From Actinomycetota bacterium (GTDB lineage Bacteria > Actinomycetota > CADDZG01 > WHSQ01), in contig JACDAL010000179.1 in NCBI GenBank assembly GCA_013695465.1, positions 1 through 57,281 of the forward strand: a stretch of 57,281 nucleotides of DNA, read 5' to 3'. Made by a program: the position numbers and the translations under genes. Below, piece by piece: positions 29,301 through 57,281 of the stretch (within the stretch, counting starts at the first letter, position 1; each line of letters starts with the position of its first letter). The notes under the pieces were generated by a model. It saw nothing but the letters and a program-made list of their open reading frames with translations, was not told where the DNA came from and ran no database searches.

Positions 29301-29305
<5 letters not shown>
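29033..29305 (-). pseudogene. GNAT acetyltransferase with internal deletion
   Basis: The frame begins with a good GNAT N-terminus (ESLTIRPLRSEEHAAAGELT, VAAYLSPLA) and ends with a good GNAT C-terminus (WMHAAHRLYSGFGFKR, then QRLDIDLPQ and LIAFVLEL). The middle 70-90 residues, including the acetyl-CoA loop R/Q-x-x-G-x-G/A, are missing and replaced by a short Ser/Asp-rich joint. No start codon is present before the preceding carboxylase stop. It is therefore a relic that lost its core by deletion. Family assignment is firm; the substrate of the ancestor is unknown. Confidence 0.65.
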
Positions 29306-31037
<1,732 letters not shown>

Positions 31038-31042
31038 CGTCC

Positions 31043-31049
31043 TATCCTA
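31043..31049. promoter_or_regulatory. Overlapping divergent -10 elements for carboxylase and birA
   Basis: The 7-bp TATCCTA gives TATCCT (31043-31048) on the plus strand, 8 nt before the birA ATG, and TAGGAT (31049-31044) on the minus strand, 6 nt before the carboxylase ATG. The two start codons are only 19 bp apart, so both -35 regions would lie inside the opposite gene. Confidence 0.5.
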
Positions 31050-31056
31050 CGAGCGC

Positions 31057-31848
31057 ATGTCCTCGGATCTGAGTGCCGCCCGAATCGAAGGCGCCCTGCG
31101 AGGCCGCTGGGGCCGCCCTCTGAGGTTCTTCGAGGAGATCGCATCGACCAACTCCGAGGCGCTCGAGTGGGCGGATGGGGGCGCGCCTGAGGGGGCCGCC
31201 GTCGTCGCCGATCATCAGAGCGCCGGCCGGGGGAGGCTGGGACGGACATGGCTGTCGGAGCCGGGCGCCATCCTGCCTCTGTCGGTCGTGCTGCGACCTC
31301 TGCTCCCGCCCCATCGCCTGGGCCTTCTCAGCGCCGCCGCCGGGTTGGCCGCAGCCGAGGCCATCGCCGGGGCATCGGGCCTGAGCTGCCGGCTAAAGTG
31401 GCCCAACGATGTCACGATCTCGGGCCGCAAGGTGGCCGGGATACTGCTCGAGAGCCGTGTAATAGGCACCGGTGGAGCCCCCGCAGTCGTTTGCGGGATC
31501 GGCATCAACGTGAGGTGGACGAAGCTGCCGGAAGAGCTAGGGGGCCGCGCCACGAGCCTCGCTCTGGAGGGCGCCTCGGTGGACCGTGCGCTACTCGCGG
31601 CCTCCCTCCTTCACGCCTTGGAAATCGTTTGTGGCAGGCTCGATGAACAGAGGGGAACCGCCGAAATCATCGCGCGGGCCACTGCTCTCTCCGAGGTGTT
31701 GGGGCAAGCCGTCGAAGCTCGCGTAGGCGGAGTGCTCGTTTCGGGTGTTGCCCTGTCGCTCTCCACGGCCGGCGGGCTCGTGCTCGACACTGCCGAGGGC
31801 TGCAGGGTCCTCGATGCCGGCGAGATCGAGAGGCTGCGGCCGGCGTGA
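31057..31848 (+). CDS. birA: Biotin-[acetyl-CoA-carboxylase] ligase
   Basis: 263 aa from ATG at 31057; the open frame continues 45 nt upstream into the carboxylase but has no support. ATP/biotin motif GRGRLGRTW at residues 57-65, KWPNDV at 114-119 and KVAGIL at 125-130. The N-terminal winged-helix domain of bifunctional BirA is absent, so it is a class I enzyme that does not act as repressor. The C-terminal SH3-like domain (about 215-263) is present. It overlaps mug downstream by 4 nt. Confidence 0.95.
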   Translation: MSSDLSAARIEGALRGRWGRPLRFFEEIASTNSEALEWADGGAPEGAAVVADHQSAGRGRLGRTWLSEPGAILPLSVVLRPLLPPHRLGLLSAAAGLAAAEAIAGASGLSCRLKWPNDVTISGRKVAGILLESRVIGTGGAPAVVCGIGINVRWTKLPEELGGRATSLALEGASVDRALLAASLLHALEIVCGRLDEQRGTAEIIARATALSEVLGQAVEARVGGVLVSGVALSLSTAGGLVLDTAEGCRVLDAGEIERLRPA

Positions 31849-35882: not shown

Positions 35883-35940
35883 ACCGGGTGCCGAGTGGTT
35901 GCAAAGCGACCATATAGAGCATCCGGCCATCACTCGGGGC

Positions 35941-35946
35941 TAGGAT
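35941..35946 (+). promoter_or_regulatory. -10 hexamer of the acyl-CoA carboxylase cluster
   Basis: TAGGAT is followed 11 nt later by the ATG at 35958, giving a leader of only a few nucleotides. Confidence 0.4.
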
Positions 35947-35957
35947 CGACCGCCACG

Positions 35958-37499
35958 ATGACCGATCCCGGCCCCCGGCTCTCGAATCTCGCCGAGCTCT
36001 CCTCGCGCGCCGAGCAAGGGGGAGCCGAGAAATACCACTCCCGGCTGGCGGAGCAGAACAAGCTATTCGTACGCCAAAGGCTCGCGCTGCTGCTCGACTC
36101 GATGGACGGCTTTGCCGAGGACGGGCTTCTCGTCAATGCTCTGAGCGGCGATCTCCCGGCCGACGGAGTCGTTACCGGGGTGGGCCGTATCGACGGGCGC
36201 CCGGTGGCGGTCATGGCCAACGACGCGACGGTCAAGGCCGGATCGTGGGGAGCCCGAACGGTCGAAAAGATCATCCGCATCATCGAACTCGCCCGCAAGC
36301 ACTCCCATCCGATCCTCTATCTCGTCGACTCCGCCGGCGCCCGCATCACCGACCAGGTCGACCTCTTCCCCGGGCGTCGGGGGGCCGGAAAGATTTTCTA
36401 TAACCAGGTCCAGGCCTCCGGGCACATCCCGCAGATCTGCTGCCTGTTCGGGCCCTCGGCGGCCGGCGGCGCTTACATCCCCGCCTTCTGCGACGTCGTG
36501 TTCATGGTCGAGCACAACGCTTCGATGTACCTGGGCTCGCCGCGCATGGCCGAGGAAGTCGTCGGCGAGAAGGTCACTCTCGAGGAGATGGGCGGGGCGC
36601 GCATGCACTGCGAGATCTCCGGCTGCGGCGACCTCCTGGTGTCGGACGAGAAGGCGGCGATCGAGGCCGCACGCGCTTACCTCTCCTACTTCCCGCAGTC
36701 CTTCGAGCTAGCTCCGCCGCGCTTGGAGGCCCGGGCCCCCGCCTATCCCGGCTCGCTTGCTGAGATCGTGCCGGACGACGAGAGCCGCGTCTTCGACATG
36801 TTCGAGTTGATCGCTGGCATCGTCGACGAAGAGTCTTTGTTCGAGATCAAGCCGGGCTTTGCTCCCGAGCTCATAACCGGGCTGGCCCGCATCGAGGGCC
36901 GCGCTGTGGGCATCGTTGCCAATCAGCCGCAGCAAAAGGGGGGCGTGCTCTTCATCGATTCGGCCGACAAGGCCGCGCGTTTCATATGGCTGTGCGACGC
37001 GTACAACCTTCCGCTGTTGTTCCTCGCCGATGTGCCGGGATTCATGATCGGTGCCGATGTCGAGCGCGGCGGGATCATCAGGCACGGAGCCAAGTTGATC
37101 ACCGCGGTGTCGCAAGCCACCACACCGAAGCTGTGCGTGGTGGTTCGAAAGGCCTATGGAGCAGGCCTCTACGCCATGGCGGGGCCGGGTTTCGAGCCGG
37201 ACGCGACCATCGCGCTTCCTACCGCACGCATTGCGGTCATGGGGCCAGAGCCCGCCGTCAGCGCCGTCTACTACAACAAGATCCAAGCCATCGAAGATGA
37301 TGACGAGCGTGCCGCCTTCGTCGCGAGAAAGCGTGCGGAGTACGAGAAAGACATCGACCTCGTCCGCCTCGCCTCCGACAACGTGGTGGATGCCGTCGTT
37401 CAGCCCGACGAGTTGAGGGCAGAGATCTGCCGCCGCCTTGGTGCACTTCAGGTCAAGGCGTCGCGCCCTCGCGGCCTGCGAGGGGTTCCCCCGGTATGA
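35958..37499 (+). CDS. Acyl-CoA carboxylase beta (carboxyltransferase) subunit
   Basis: 513 aa from ATG 35958; the frame extends 63 nt upstream without support. N-terminal crotonase fold: LSSRAEQGGAEKYHSRLAEQ, VNDATVKAGSWGARTVEKI-like region, and SAAGGAYIPAFCDVVFMVE. The C-terminal half has ADVPGFMIGADVERGGIIRH, GAKLITAVSQATTPKLCVVV, and MAGPGFEPDATIALPTAR. This C-terminal pattern belongs to the AccD/MCC-like beta subunits. Substrate may be methylcrotonyl-, propionyl- or geranyl-CoA; not resolvable here. Overlaps the hydratase gene by 4 nt. Confidence 0.9.
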   Translation: MTDPGPRLSNLAELSSRAEQGGAEKYHSRLAEQNKLFVRQRLALLLDSMDGFAEDGLLVNALSGDLPADGVVTGVGRIDGRPVAVMANDATVKAGSWGARTVEKIIRIIELARKHSHPILYLVDSAGARITDQVDLFPGRRGAGKIFYNQVQASGHIPQICCLFGPSAAGGAYIPAFCDVVFMVEHNASMYLGSPRMAEEVVGEKVTLEEMGGARMHCEISGCGDLLVSDEKAAIEAARAYLSYFPQSFELAPPRLEARAPAYPGSLAEIVPDDESRVFDMFELIAGIVDEESLFEIKPGFAPELITGLARIEGRAVGIVANQPQQKGGVLFIDSADKAARFIWLCDAYNLPLLFLADVPGFMIGADVERGGIIRHGAKLITAVSQATTPKLCVVVRKAYGAGLYAMAGPGFEPDATIALPTARIAVMGPEPAVSAVYYNKIQAIEDDDERAAFVARKRAEYEKDIDLVRLASDNVVDAVVQPDELRAEICRRLGALQVKASRPRGLRGVPPV

Positions 37500-38269
37500 G
37501 CCTGGTCTCTCTTCAGGTGAAAGACGATATCGGAGTAATCACGCTCGAGCGCCCCGAGGCTCTGAATGCAATCTCGTCGAGCGTCGCCGAGTCTCTGCGC
37601 GAGGTTCTGAGAGAGGTCGGCTCGCGCCCCGACATCCTTGTCGCCGTTCTTACCGGGGCGGGCGATTCTTTCTGTGTGGGGGCCGATTTGAAGGAGAGGG
37701 GCAACTTCGAGATCGACGACTGGTATTCGAACAGGCGACAGATCTCAGGAATGTTCCAGGCCCTCAGAGAGCTCCCCCAACCCAGCATCGCCGCGGTCTT
37801 CGGGTGGACGCTCGGAGGCGGCTTCGAGCTGGCCCTCTCGTGCGATCTCATGGTTGCCGCAGAAGGGACGCGCATGGGGCTCCCGGAGGCCGGCGTGGGC
37901 TTGCTCCCGGCGGGCGGGGGGACGCTGTTGCTGGCGCGCATGGTGGGGATTCGCCGCGCCAAAGAGATCGTCTACACGCGCCGCCGCCTCGAGGCCTCAG
38001 AGGGCTTGGAGATGGGGCTCGTCACCCGGAGCGCACCCGCGGCGGAGCTGCAAGCCACCGCCCTCGAGCTAGCCGCAGAAGTGTGCGGCTCGTCACCCGT
38101 CGTGGTGCGGGAGGCAAAGCGCCTCATCGAGGCATCGTGGAGCGAGCCGCTGCCCCGGGCCCTCGAGCTCGAGAACGAGGCCTGGGCCCGGGTGATCGTC
38201 ACCGAGGACCGCGCCGAAGGCATCGCCGCCTTCAACGACAAGCGCAGCCCTCGCTGGCGCAACCGCTAG
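37496..38269 (+). CDS. Enoyl-CoA hydratase/isomerase-family protein
   Basis: 257 aa, ATG overlapping the upstream stop. The crotonase signature is present: ITLERPEALNAISSS, VLTGAGDSFCVGADLKE (oxyanion hole) and FGWTLGGGFELALSCDLMVA. The first catalytic Glu lies in MGLPEAGVGLLPAGGGT, the second region in ASEGLEMGLVTR. Length and motifs fit hydratases such as methylglutaconyl-CoA hydratase. Placement between carboxyltransferase and biotin carboxylase genes is the liuB-C-D order known for leucine degradation, so this role is possible but not proven. Confidence 0.9.
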   Translation: MSLVSLQVKDDIGVITLERPEALNAISSSVAESLREVLREVGSRPDILVAVLTGAGDSFCVGADLKERGNFEIDDWYSNRRQISGMFQALRELPQPSIAAVFGWTLGGGFELALSCDLMVAAEGTRMGLPEAGVGLLPAGGGTLLLARMVGIRRAKEIVYTRRRLEASEGLEMGLVTRSAPAAELQATALELAAEVCGSSPVVVREAKRLIEASWSEPLPRALELENEAWARVIVTEDRAEGIAAFNDKRSPRWRNR

Positions 38270-38275
38270 GACGAC

Positions 38276-39973
38276 ATGTTCAAGCGGGTGCTGATCGCCA
38301 ACCGGGGGGAGATCGCGGTCCGAATCGCCCGGACCTGTCGTGAGCTCGGCGTTACGCCGATGGGCGTCTACTCGGACCTCGACCGCCGCTCCCTCCACGT
38401 TTCAGAGATGCGCGACGCGGTTGGCCTCGAGGGCGACAATCCTGCAACCACTTATCTGAACGCGGACGCCCTCATCGCGGCGGCGCACGATCTGGGGGCC
38501 GAGGCGATCCATCCCGGCTATGGCTTCTTGTCCGAGGATGCCCCCTTTGCCGAAGCGGTGACGGCGGCGGGAATCACTTTCATCGGCCCTCCCGTGGAGG
38601 CGCTGCGGGCCTCGGGCGACAAGCTCAGAGCTCGGCGGCTGGCAGCGGCTGCAGGGGTCCCGACGGTGCCGGGGAGCAGCGAGCCCTGCCCAGATCACGA
38701 GGCCGCAGCCGCGCTCGCCGCAAGAGTGGGCCTGCCGGTGGCGATCAAGGCAGCAGGAGGGGGCGGGGGGCGGGGCCTCAGGGTGGCCCACTCGCTGGAC
38801 GACATACCCTCCGCCTTCGACCGGGCCCGGCGAGAGGCGCAGGCCTATTTCTTCTCTTCCGAGGTCTACGTCGAACGCTATCTGCCGGCCCCCAAGCACC
38901 TCGAGGTCCAGATCCTCGCACCCGCGCCCGACGAGGCGCTGTGGCTGGGCGTGCGGGACTGCTCGTTGCAGCGACGCAATCAGAAGCTGGTGGAGGAGAC
39001 GCCGCCCGCTCTGTTCCGAAATCTCGAGCCCGCGATGGGGGCCGCGGCGGCCGGCTTCGCCCGAGCCTGCGGTTACGTCGGGGTGGGGACCGTCGAGATG
39101 CTGGTCGATACTGCGACCGAGTCCTTCTACTTCCTCGAGATGAACGCCCGGCTCCAGGTCGAGCACACCGTGACCGAGGAGGTCTTTGGGATAGACCTTG
39201 TCGCCTGCCAGTTGCTGATCGCCTCGGGCGATTGGCGAGAGGCGCGCCCGAACAACATTCAGCCGCGGGGCCACGCCATTGAGTGTCGCATCAATGCCGA
39301 GGACCCTGCCGCAGGCTTTACCCCGGCCCCCGGACGCATCTCCGGCTACCGAGAGCCTGCCGGGCTTGGAGTGAGGGTCGACTCGGGTTACCGGGCCGGC
39401 GATGAGATCCCCAGCGCTTACGATTCCCTCATCGCCAAGCTGGTCACCTGGGGCTCCGACCGGCACCAGGCCGTGCGCCGCATGCGCAGGGCGCTCGACG
39501 ATTTCGTCATCGAGGGCGTGCCCACGACGATCTCGGCCCACCGAGCGCTGCTGTCCGACGAATCCTTCCTGGCCGGCTCTCACACCACCGCCACGGTCGG
39601 GGAGCTGGCGGCCCGTTTCGAGCCTGCCGCTTCCCCGAGGGCGGAGATTGGGGGCGTGGTGGTCGTGGGCGGGCGGCAGGCCCATCTGTGGCATCCGGCC
39701 ATGGCGGCTTCGGCCACTCAGGCAACCGGCTCGACGGGCGGAGGTGCGGTGGTGGCGCCGATGCAGGCGGTCGTGCTCGAGGTATTGGTGGCGGAGGGCG
39801 ACAGGGTCGTGGCGGGGGCCACGCTCGTGAGGCTCGAAGCCATGAAGATGGAAACCGTGCTGTGCGCTCCTCGGGAGGCTGAGGTCACGCGCGTGGCTGT
39901 GGCTCCGGGAGAGACGGTGCCGTCGGGCGGCGTGGTGGTCGAGCTGGAAGTGGATCCCGTGGATATGGAGTGA
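38276..39973 (+). CDS. Acyl-CoA carboxylase alpha subunit (biotin carboxylase-BCCP fusion)
   Basis: 565 aa. Biotin carboxylase: FKRVLIANRGEIAVRIARTC, ATP-grasp loop IKAAGGGGGRGLRV, RDCSLQRRNQKLVEET, FLEMNARLQVEHTVTEE. C-terminal biotinyl domain has LVRLEAMKMET with Lys524. It differs clearly from the paralogue at 29301 (for example in the linker and the biotinyl domain), so they are not a recent duplication. Expected to form the heteromeric carboxylase with the beta subunit two genes upstream. BirA at 31057 should biotinylate both. The stop overlaps the GTG of the next gene. Confidence 0.93.
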   Translation: MFKRVLIANRGEIAVRIARTCRELGVTPMGVYSDLDRRSLHVSEMRDAVGLEGDNPATTYLNADALIAAAHDLGAEAIHPGYGFLSEDAPFAEAVTAAGITFIGPPVEALRASGDKLRARRLAAAAGVPTVPGSSEPCPDHEAAAALAARVGLPVAIKAAGGGGGRGLRVAHSLDDIPSAFDRARREAQAYFFSSEVYVERYLPAPKHLEVQILAPAPDEALWLGVRDCSLQRRNQKLVEETPPALFRNLEPAMGAAAAGFARACGYVGVGTVEMLVDTATESFYFLEMNARLQVEHTVTEEVFGIDLVACQLLIASGDWREARPNNIQPRGHAIECRINAEDPAAGFTPAPGRISGYREPAGLGVRVDSGYRAGDEIPSAYDSLIAKLVTWGSDRHQAVRRMRRALDDFVIEGVPTTISAHRALLSDESFLAGSHTTATVGELAARFEPAASPRAEIGGVVVVGGRQAHLWHPAMAASATQATGSTGGGAVVAPMQAVVLEVLVAEGDRVVAGATLVRLEAMKMETVLCAPREAEVTRVAVAPGETVPSGGVVVELEVDPVDME

Positions 39974-56305: not shown

Positions 56306-56932
56306 TCAAAGGCTCCCTTCCCAGATGCCTTGTGCGGTCTCTTCCGAGGCCGAGTCTAAGAGCGGCGGCTTGTCTTTTGAATCCCCGGGTGAGATTAGAT
56401 CAGGGGTGACGCCCAAGTCGTAGACCGGCCATCCGTCGTCCGCGGCCCTAGCCGCGGGGTGAAGGGGGTGCTCTTGGGCCGAGCCGGCGCTCAGGAGATG
56501 TTCCACGAAGGTCCCCCGCAGCAGCAGGGCATCGGCGATCAGTCGCCGATGGCAGTGCCACCAGAGGGTCTCGGCGCACAAGACCGCCGCCGACTCGCAG
56601 CCGGCAGCCTCTTCGATCGCTTCCAAGGCGGCTCGGAACTCGGCGGTGTCCATGTGGTCGGCGTAGGCACGAAAGGACCGGTTGCGCCAGGCCGGGTGCC
56701 GGCTGTTCTCGGCCCCCTTTCGGCGCCCGCCTAGCTCTTCGCCGCGCCACTCGTAGTCGAGCTCCGCAACTCTCAGAGATCGCGCCAGAGCGGCTCGGGA
56801 GAATTGGGGATGTCGGCGGGAGCCGGGGAAGCGACGGACATCGACCAGTCGGCACACACCCGCGCTCTGGAGCATCTCGATCAGCTCGGCTGAGGTCTTG
56901 GTGCCATGCCCGATCGTGTGGACGAGGGCCAT
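56306..56932 (-). CDS. DUF488-family protein
   Basis: 208 aa. Starts LVHTIGHGTKTSAELIEML, followed by LVDVRRFPGSRRHPQFSRAA and AVLCAETLWWHCHRRLIADA, the three signature motifs of DUF488 with conserved Cys and His. The function is unknown; some members are linked to base modification or nucleotide chemistry. C-terminal 40 residues are variable. First gene of the operon running into aldolase and prk: the aldolase starts 1 nt after its stop. TAGGTT stands 8 nt before the ATG. Confidence 0.9.
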   Translation of the reverse strand: MALVHTIGHGTKTSAELIEMLQSAGVCRLVDVRRFPGSRRHPQFSRAALARSLRVAELDYEWRGEELGGRRKGAENSRHPAWRNRSFRAYADHMDTAEFRAALEAIEEAAGCESAAVLCAETLWWHCHRRLIADALLLRGTFVEHLLSAGSAQEHPLHPAARAADDGWPVYDLGVTPDLISPGDSKDKPPLLDSASEETAQGIWEGSL

Positions 56933-56939
56933 GGCGGGC

Positions 56940-56946
56940 TAACCTA
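56940..56946. promoter_or_regulatory. Overlapping divergent -10 elements for DUF488 operon and mutM
   Basis: TAACCTA reads TAACCT (56940-56945) on the plus strand, 13 nt before the mutM ATG, and TAGGTT (56946-56941) on the minus strand, 8 nt before the DUF488 ATG. Confidence 0.45.
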
Positions 56947-56958
56947 ATGGTCCGTCAT

Positions 56959-57281
56959 ATGCCCGAGCTACCAGAGGTCGAGTCCGTCCGCCGCCAGCTC
57001 GACCCCGCGCTTGCCGGCCGCACCGTCGTGCAGGTGTGGGCCGATCCCATCCCCTCCATCCCGCGCCAGTTCACGGGCCTCGACCGGCTTGCAGGCCGCA
57101 CCATCGCGAGGGTTTCTCGGCGCGGCAAGTTCCTCATCGCTCCACTCGACCGCGACCTCGAGCTGATCATGCATCTCGGTATGACGGGTCAACTGGGGTT
57201 CGACCTCCTGGGCGACCCCTATGTGAGGGCTCGGCTGCGGTTTGACGACGAACGCACGCTGACGTTTCGTGACGTGCGCCG
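56959..57281 (+). CDS. mutM: Formamidopyrimidine-DNA glycosylase, N-terminal part (partial)
   Basis: The frame is open to the window end, giving 107 codons plus two bases. It begins MPELPEVESVRRQL, where Pro2 is the catalytic nucleophile after Met removal and Glu3/Glu6 are active-site residues. This fixes the start at ATG 56959 and rules out the in-frame ATG at 56947. ISRRGKFLI-like stretch (RVSRRGKFLIAPL) and MHLGMTGQLGF with the conserved Met loop follow. The enzyme excises 8-oxoguanine and FapyG from DNA. The C-terminal H2TH and zinc finger lie beyond the window. Confidence 0.93.
   Translation, partial: MPELPEVESVRRQLDPALAGRTVVQVWADPIPSIPRQFTGLDRLAGRTIARVSRRGKFLIAPLDRDLELIMHLGMTGQLGFDLLGDPYVRARLRFDDERTLTFRDVR

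Follow-up and report, generated by a model that had tools for sequence, protein, structure and literature searches.

The 57,281-nt stretch analyzed here (the window) is contig C169 of assembly G000, which totals 2.55 Mb in 186 contigs and is 89.5% complete. It carries a biotin carboxylase gene and a biotin protein ligase gene, birA, that are read away from each other across a very short spacer. Positions 31035-31059 read CATCGTCCTATCCTACGAGCGCATG, that is, CAT, CGTCC, TATCCTA, CGAGCGC and ATG in turn, with the carboxylase ATG at 31037-31035 on the minus strand and the birA ATG at 31057-31059 on the plus strand. The features of the locus, with domains assigned by Pfam and NCBIfam and promoter elements and starts as proposed below, are:

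29301-31037, minus strand: biotin carboxylase/biotin carboxyl carrier fusion, 578 aa (Biotin_carb_N, CPSase_L_D2, Biotin_carb_C, Biotin_lipoyl)
31038-31056, no strand: spacer separating both start codons, 19 bp
31057-31848, plus strand: birA, biotin protein ligase without helix-turn-helix, 263 aa (BPL_LplA_LipB, TIGR00121)
31043-31049, no strand: putative shared symmetric -10 element, TATCCTA
31043-31048, plus strand: putative birA -10 hexamer, TATCCT, ending 8 nt before the ATG
31044-31049, minus strand: putative carboxylase -10 hexamer, TAGGAT (complement of 31044-31049), ending 6 nt before the ATG
31055-31057, plus strand: birA transcription start predicted from geometry (31055 by the 7-bp rule; 31057 is the A of the ATG)
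31037, minus strand: carboxylase transcription start predicted from geometry (the A of its ATG)

A coding-score gene caller placed the birA start about 28 nt farther upstream, inside an overlap with the carboxylase gene; an alignment that includes relatives favors the ATG at 31057. The ligase domain is present, no match to an N-terminal helix-turn-helix was found in birA, and models of bifunctional BirA align only from residue 64 onward, as expected of a Group I (non-regulatory) biotin protein ligase; the initial annotation's description of a BirA without a DNA-binding domain thus holds. In BirA-regulated bio operons, the biotin ligase gene lies beside biotin-related genes in a divergent layout. 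The ligase here, in contrast, lacks the helix-turn-helix with which it could act as repressor of an autoregulated operon of this type, and the 19-bp spacer leaves no room for a separate operator. Scanning genome contigs with a profile of the carboxylase alignment returned mostly distant carboxylases and one same-family record, WHSV01000043.1. A second biotin-enzyme set lies at 35895-39973 of the window, all on the plus strand, and comprises a carboxyltransferase gene, an enoyl-CoA hydratase-like gene and a paralogous biotin carboxylase/BCCP fusion.

Leaderless signals and the geometry of the spacer

Gene statistics cover 350 kb from G000 and, from a second genome of the same family (G003), 400 kb; genes were called with a simple, home-made program that is blind to promoter information and leaves some start choices uncertain. 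A TANNNT hexamer whose end lies 6, 7 or 8 nt from the start codon precedes 45/297 genes in G000 and 43/355 in its relative (88/652 combined), against a background of about 0.5 per position farther upstream in G000. This sharp excess near starts indicates that leaderless promoters are common in these genomes, as they are in other Actinobacteria (PMC3160421, PMC3898074). A Shine-Dalgarno peak is also present in G000. RbpA (PF13397) had no match in the G000 assembly, which is of actinobacterial lineage but incomplete at 89.5%, and a scan with the sigma-70 consensus, which is uninformative for TANNNT promoters, likewise gave none.

As a bare word, TATCCTA is meaningless because 0.91 copies are expected per window, and its count was discarded as evidence; its placement is what counts. 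By chance, only 0.33% of 19-mers randomized at this composition would have a TANNNT 6-8 nt ahead of both starts, and this spacer is the single place in the 2.55-Mb assembly where the strict pattern CAT-N5-8-TANNNTA-N5-8-ATG matches. The arrangement described in the initial annotation, with 19 bp between divergent starts and TATCCTA set 8 nt (plus) and 6 nt (minus) from them, was confirmed in the sequence, and both spacings fall within the genome-wide 6-8 nt peak. The plus-strand reading, TATCCT, ranks second in frequency among the leaderless -10 hexamers sampled (7/88); TAGGAT, on the minus strand, scores even higher and is the top sequence on a matrix of leaderless -10s built from these genomes. 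The two readings interlock: position 31048 is -7 on the plus strand and -11 on the minus strand, while 31044 is -7 on the minus strand and -11 on the plus strand. The predicted starts, 31055 and 31037, are separated by 18 bp; were birA transcription to begin at its ATG, the separation would be 20 bp.

Conservation and rival readings

We aligned the spacers of 12 same-family genomes, representing 10 genera, on the element. TATCCTA is intact in 11 of them, whereas the remaining spacer sequence has drifted; the exception, G002, carries a broken version, TATCCGTATTGT. The initial annotation had named disappearance of the 7-mer from close relatives with unchanged gene order as evidence against a shared promoter; within the family, G002 is the sole such case, and the outcome favors the proposal. 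Each of the seven element columns holds 1.6-2.5 bits of information, and the other spacer columns mostly hold less than 1. In nearly all spacers, 6-10 nt separate the hexamer from the start codon on either side, G010 having a longer carboxylase leader; the predicted mRNAs would accordingly carry leaders of 0 to about 4 nt, and in the several relatives with distances of 8-10 nt, slightly above the genome-wide peak, a leader of 1-4 nt is likely. A C at -2 (11/12) and a G at +8 (10/12) are also conserved, symmetrically about the element center (C-N-TATCCTA-N-G); ordinary leaderless -10s in these genomes show no such flank preference. Beyond the family, merged and separate -10 versions both exist: family f3, of the same class, has the pair with two separate leaderless -10s (ATTCTA...TAGGAT); in family f8, one genome (G056) retains the layout in a different sequence, CATAGTATCTG, and another (G028) keeps TATCCTA for the carboxylase and has a separate -10 for birA; and in f18 (G038) TATCCTA is predicted to serve birA without a leader and the carboxylase with a long one.

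The seventh base of the element provides the best evidence, at the level of sequence, for use of both directions. TANNNT suffices for one direction, and an A in the seventh position is useful solely to the opposite strand, where it supplies the -12T. This A is found in 11/12 carboxylase/birA spacers versus 3/78 other leaderless -10s, taken from genes with no close divergent neighbor (p = 1e-10, for genomes that are related and hence not independent). Where carboxylase and birA lie apart, their elements read TAAGATT (G001 carboxylase), TATTCTT (birA of G016 and G021) and TAGGATG (G021 carboxylase), so the symmetry is gone there.

Could the element serve the carboxylase alone, with TATCCT a by-product and birA driven by a different promoter, perhaps one within the carboxylase gene? 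TAGGAT is a near-ideal leaderless -10 and outscores TATCCT, as this reading would have it, but the conserved first T and the conserved 6-10 nt spacing to birA are of no use to the carboxylase, TATCCT is itself a common leaderless -10 in these genomes, and the symmetry vanishes once the genes are separated; we consider this improbable. Still less credit is due to the idea that the promoter reading is illusory and that AGGA, within TAGGATA on the minus strand, is conserved as the carboxylase Shine-Dalgarno site. AGGA does end 7 nt before the carboxylase ATG in a genome with a Shine-Dalgarno peak, but this function accounts neither for the outer bases of the 7-mer (T, A and A) nor for the birA spacing; moreover, family f8 (G056) has TACTAT and f3 has TAGAAT at that place, without AGGA, and other pairs with the same layout use TAGCCTA, TAACCTA or TTACCGTA, none with a Shine-Dalgarno site on either strand. 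AGGA may nevertheless double as a Shine-Dalgarno site for the carboxylase alone, beside its -10 role.

The symmetrically conserved C and G around the element could instead mark the pseudo-palindrome C-N-TATCCTA-N-G as the operator for a regulator of both genes. This, too, is highly implausible: genes unrelated to this pair also have TATCCT as their leaderless -10, other pairs show the same arrangement spelled by a different sequence, and a bound regulator would cover the sole promoter. An operator overlapping the promoter is possible but is not needed to explain the observations.

The reading that one symmetric -10 serves both strands at leaderless or near-leaderless spacing, as first proposed in the initial annotation, is well supported by these comparisons, and we posit that TATCCTA at 31043-31049 is very probably the core of a bidirectional promoter serving birA and the carboxylase, with starts at or near both start codons. 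RNA polymerase would engage the same seven bases either way, using TATCCT as the -10 for birA and TAGGAT as the -10 for the carboxylase, with the -11A of one strand paired with the -7T of the other. Transcription would begin directly at the start codon or no more than about 4 nt from it, making both mRNAs leaderless or nearly so and a Shine-Dalgarno site, we propose, dispensable. The element itself, the genome-wide leaderless signal, conservation, the seventh-base test and the geometry are all matters of sequence; from them we infer starts at the predicted positions, use of the housekeeping sigma factor and leaderless translation. At published bidirectional promoters, polymerases cannot occupy both orientations together, there is hardly any interference at low activity and strong activation of one direction can repress the other (PMC12825309). 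By analogy, the element studied here would be occupied in one orientation at a time, never in both, with little interference at low activity and possible repression of one direction when the other is strongly activated. Selection would hold the element in place because it serves two genes at once.

Other divergent pairs and exchange of partners

The same layout recurs at other genes. Among 21 genomes, 19/39 TANNNTA sites placed between CAT and ATG lie between two coding genes versus 2/40 sites of the control pattern ATNNNAT (p = 8e-6, counting sites across related genomes and ignoring phylogeny). A stricter rule that drops sites inside a called gene yields 13/39 versus 2/40, but wrongly discards the carboxylase/birA site, since birA had been called from the start farther upstream. 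Recurrent pairs include a PIG-L deacetylase and a membrane protein (TAGCCTA, in ten same-family genomes), formamidopyrimidine-DNA glycosylase and a tRNA-binding-like protein (mostly TAACCTA), FTCD_N and DUF302, and others; most pairs with the shared layout have no evident common pathway. The window itself holds a second element that looks shared in this way:

56940-56946, no strand: TAACCTA (region 56930-56961), between a DUF488 gene and a formamidopyrimidine-DNA glycosylase gene
56932, minus strand: ATG of the DUF488 gene, 8 nt from TAGGTT
56959, plus strand: ATG of the glycosylase gene, 13 nt from TAACCT

In relatives, the tRNA-binding-like protein takes the place of DUF488 as the partner of the glycosylase at TAACCTA. 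The carboxylase promoter can also change partners: in G006 (L015), the gene for a PLP-dependent enzyme lies between promoter and birA in a leaderless position, 9 nt from TATCCT, and a genus-mate, G013 (L012), has in that place a 19-codon ORF, possibly a remnant, that overlaps birA by GTGA. When GTG starts are allowed, three more divergent pairs with TANNNTA between close starts appear in G000, one of which (TAGGCTA) has a counterpart in G004:

C16, 41591-41613 (L295)
C43, 8636-8659 (L296)
C177, 2081-2105 (L302)

The element thus appears to be retained on behalf of a pair of genes, which need not be carboxylase and birA. The purpose suggested in the initial annotation, coupling of a biotin enzyme to its ligase, fares less well than the promoter itself: the same design stands at pairs without an evident common pathway, the gene for a PLP-dependent enzyme replaces birA beside the promoter in one relative, and the two orientations of published promoters are mutually exclusive and largely independent at basal activity (PMC12825309). 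Coupling could apply in the case of biotin, but this is the weaker claim, and the pattern as a whole does not show it.

Relation to known promoters and significance

Bidirectional -10 elements have been described mostly through start-site mapping, and one of the two products is often non-coding. The symmetric elements reported by Warman, Grainger and colleagues (Nat Microbiol 2021, via PMC10268837; PMC12825309) resemble ours in that a short -10 is read both ways, with -7T and -11A reciprocally paired and starts 7-25 bp apart, 18 bp being both the commonest distance (PMC10268837) and that predicted here. In our case, however, both products are protein-coding, both mRNAs are predicted to be leaderless, promoter and both start codons fit within 25 bp, and the evidence comes from comparison, whereas theirs comes from start-site mapping. 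Leaderless TANNNT promoters of Actinobacteria (PMC3160421, PMC3898074) are similarly placed about 6-9 nt before the start codon, with no clear -35 element, but here one element faces two start codons and its seventh base is also constrained. The adjacent divergent genes prpD (Rv1130) and Rv1129c of M. tuberculosis, both mapped as leaderless (PMC3898074), are a possible parallel; the neighbor there is a regulator, whereas here it is a ligase without a DNA-binding domain. Our literature search on bidirectional and leaderless promoters found no description of the double-leaderless form.

More tentatively, and with odds we would put somewhat against it, the compact module of start codon, shared -10 and opposite start codon (about 23-28 bp) could, in this class of uncultured Actinomycetota, recur as an evolutionary unit at many conserved divergent pairs; such a unit would lock gene order, because moving either gene breaks the promoter of the other, yet accept new partners and set the balance of two proteins by polymerase orientation. 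Comparison alone points to a symmetric -10 under selection between two protein genes, down to a base that matters only to the opposite strand, and the seventh-base comparison provides a simple sequence test for bidirectional promoters in uncultured genomes. A shared -10 also offers a testable reason, besides shared function, for the conservation of head-to-head gene order.
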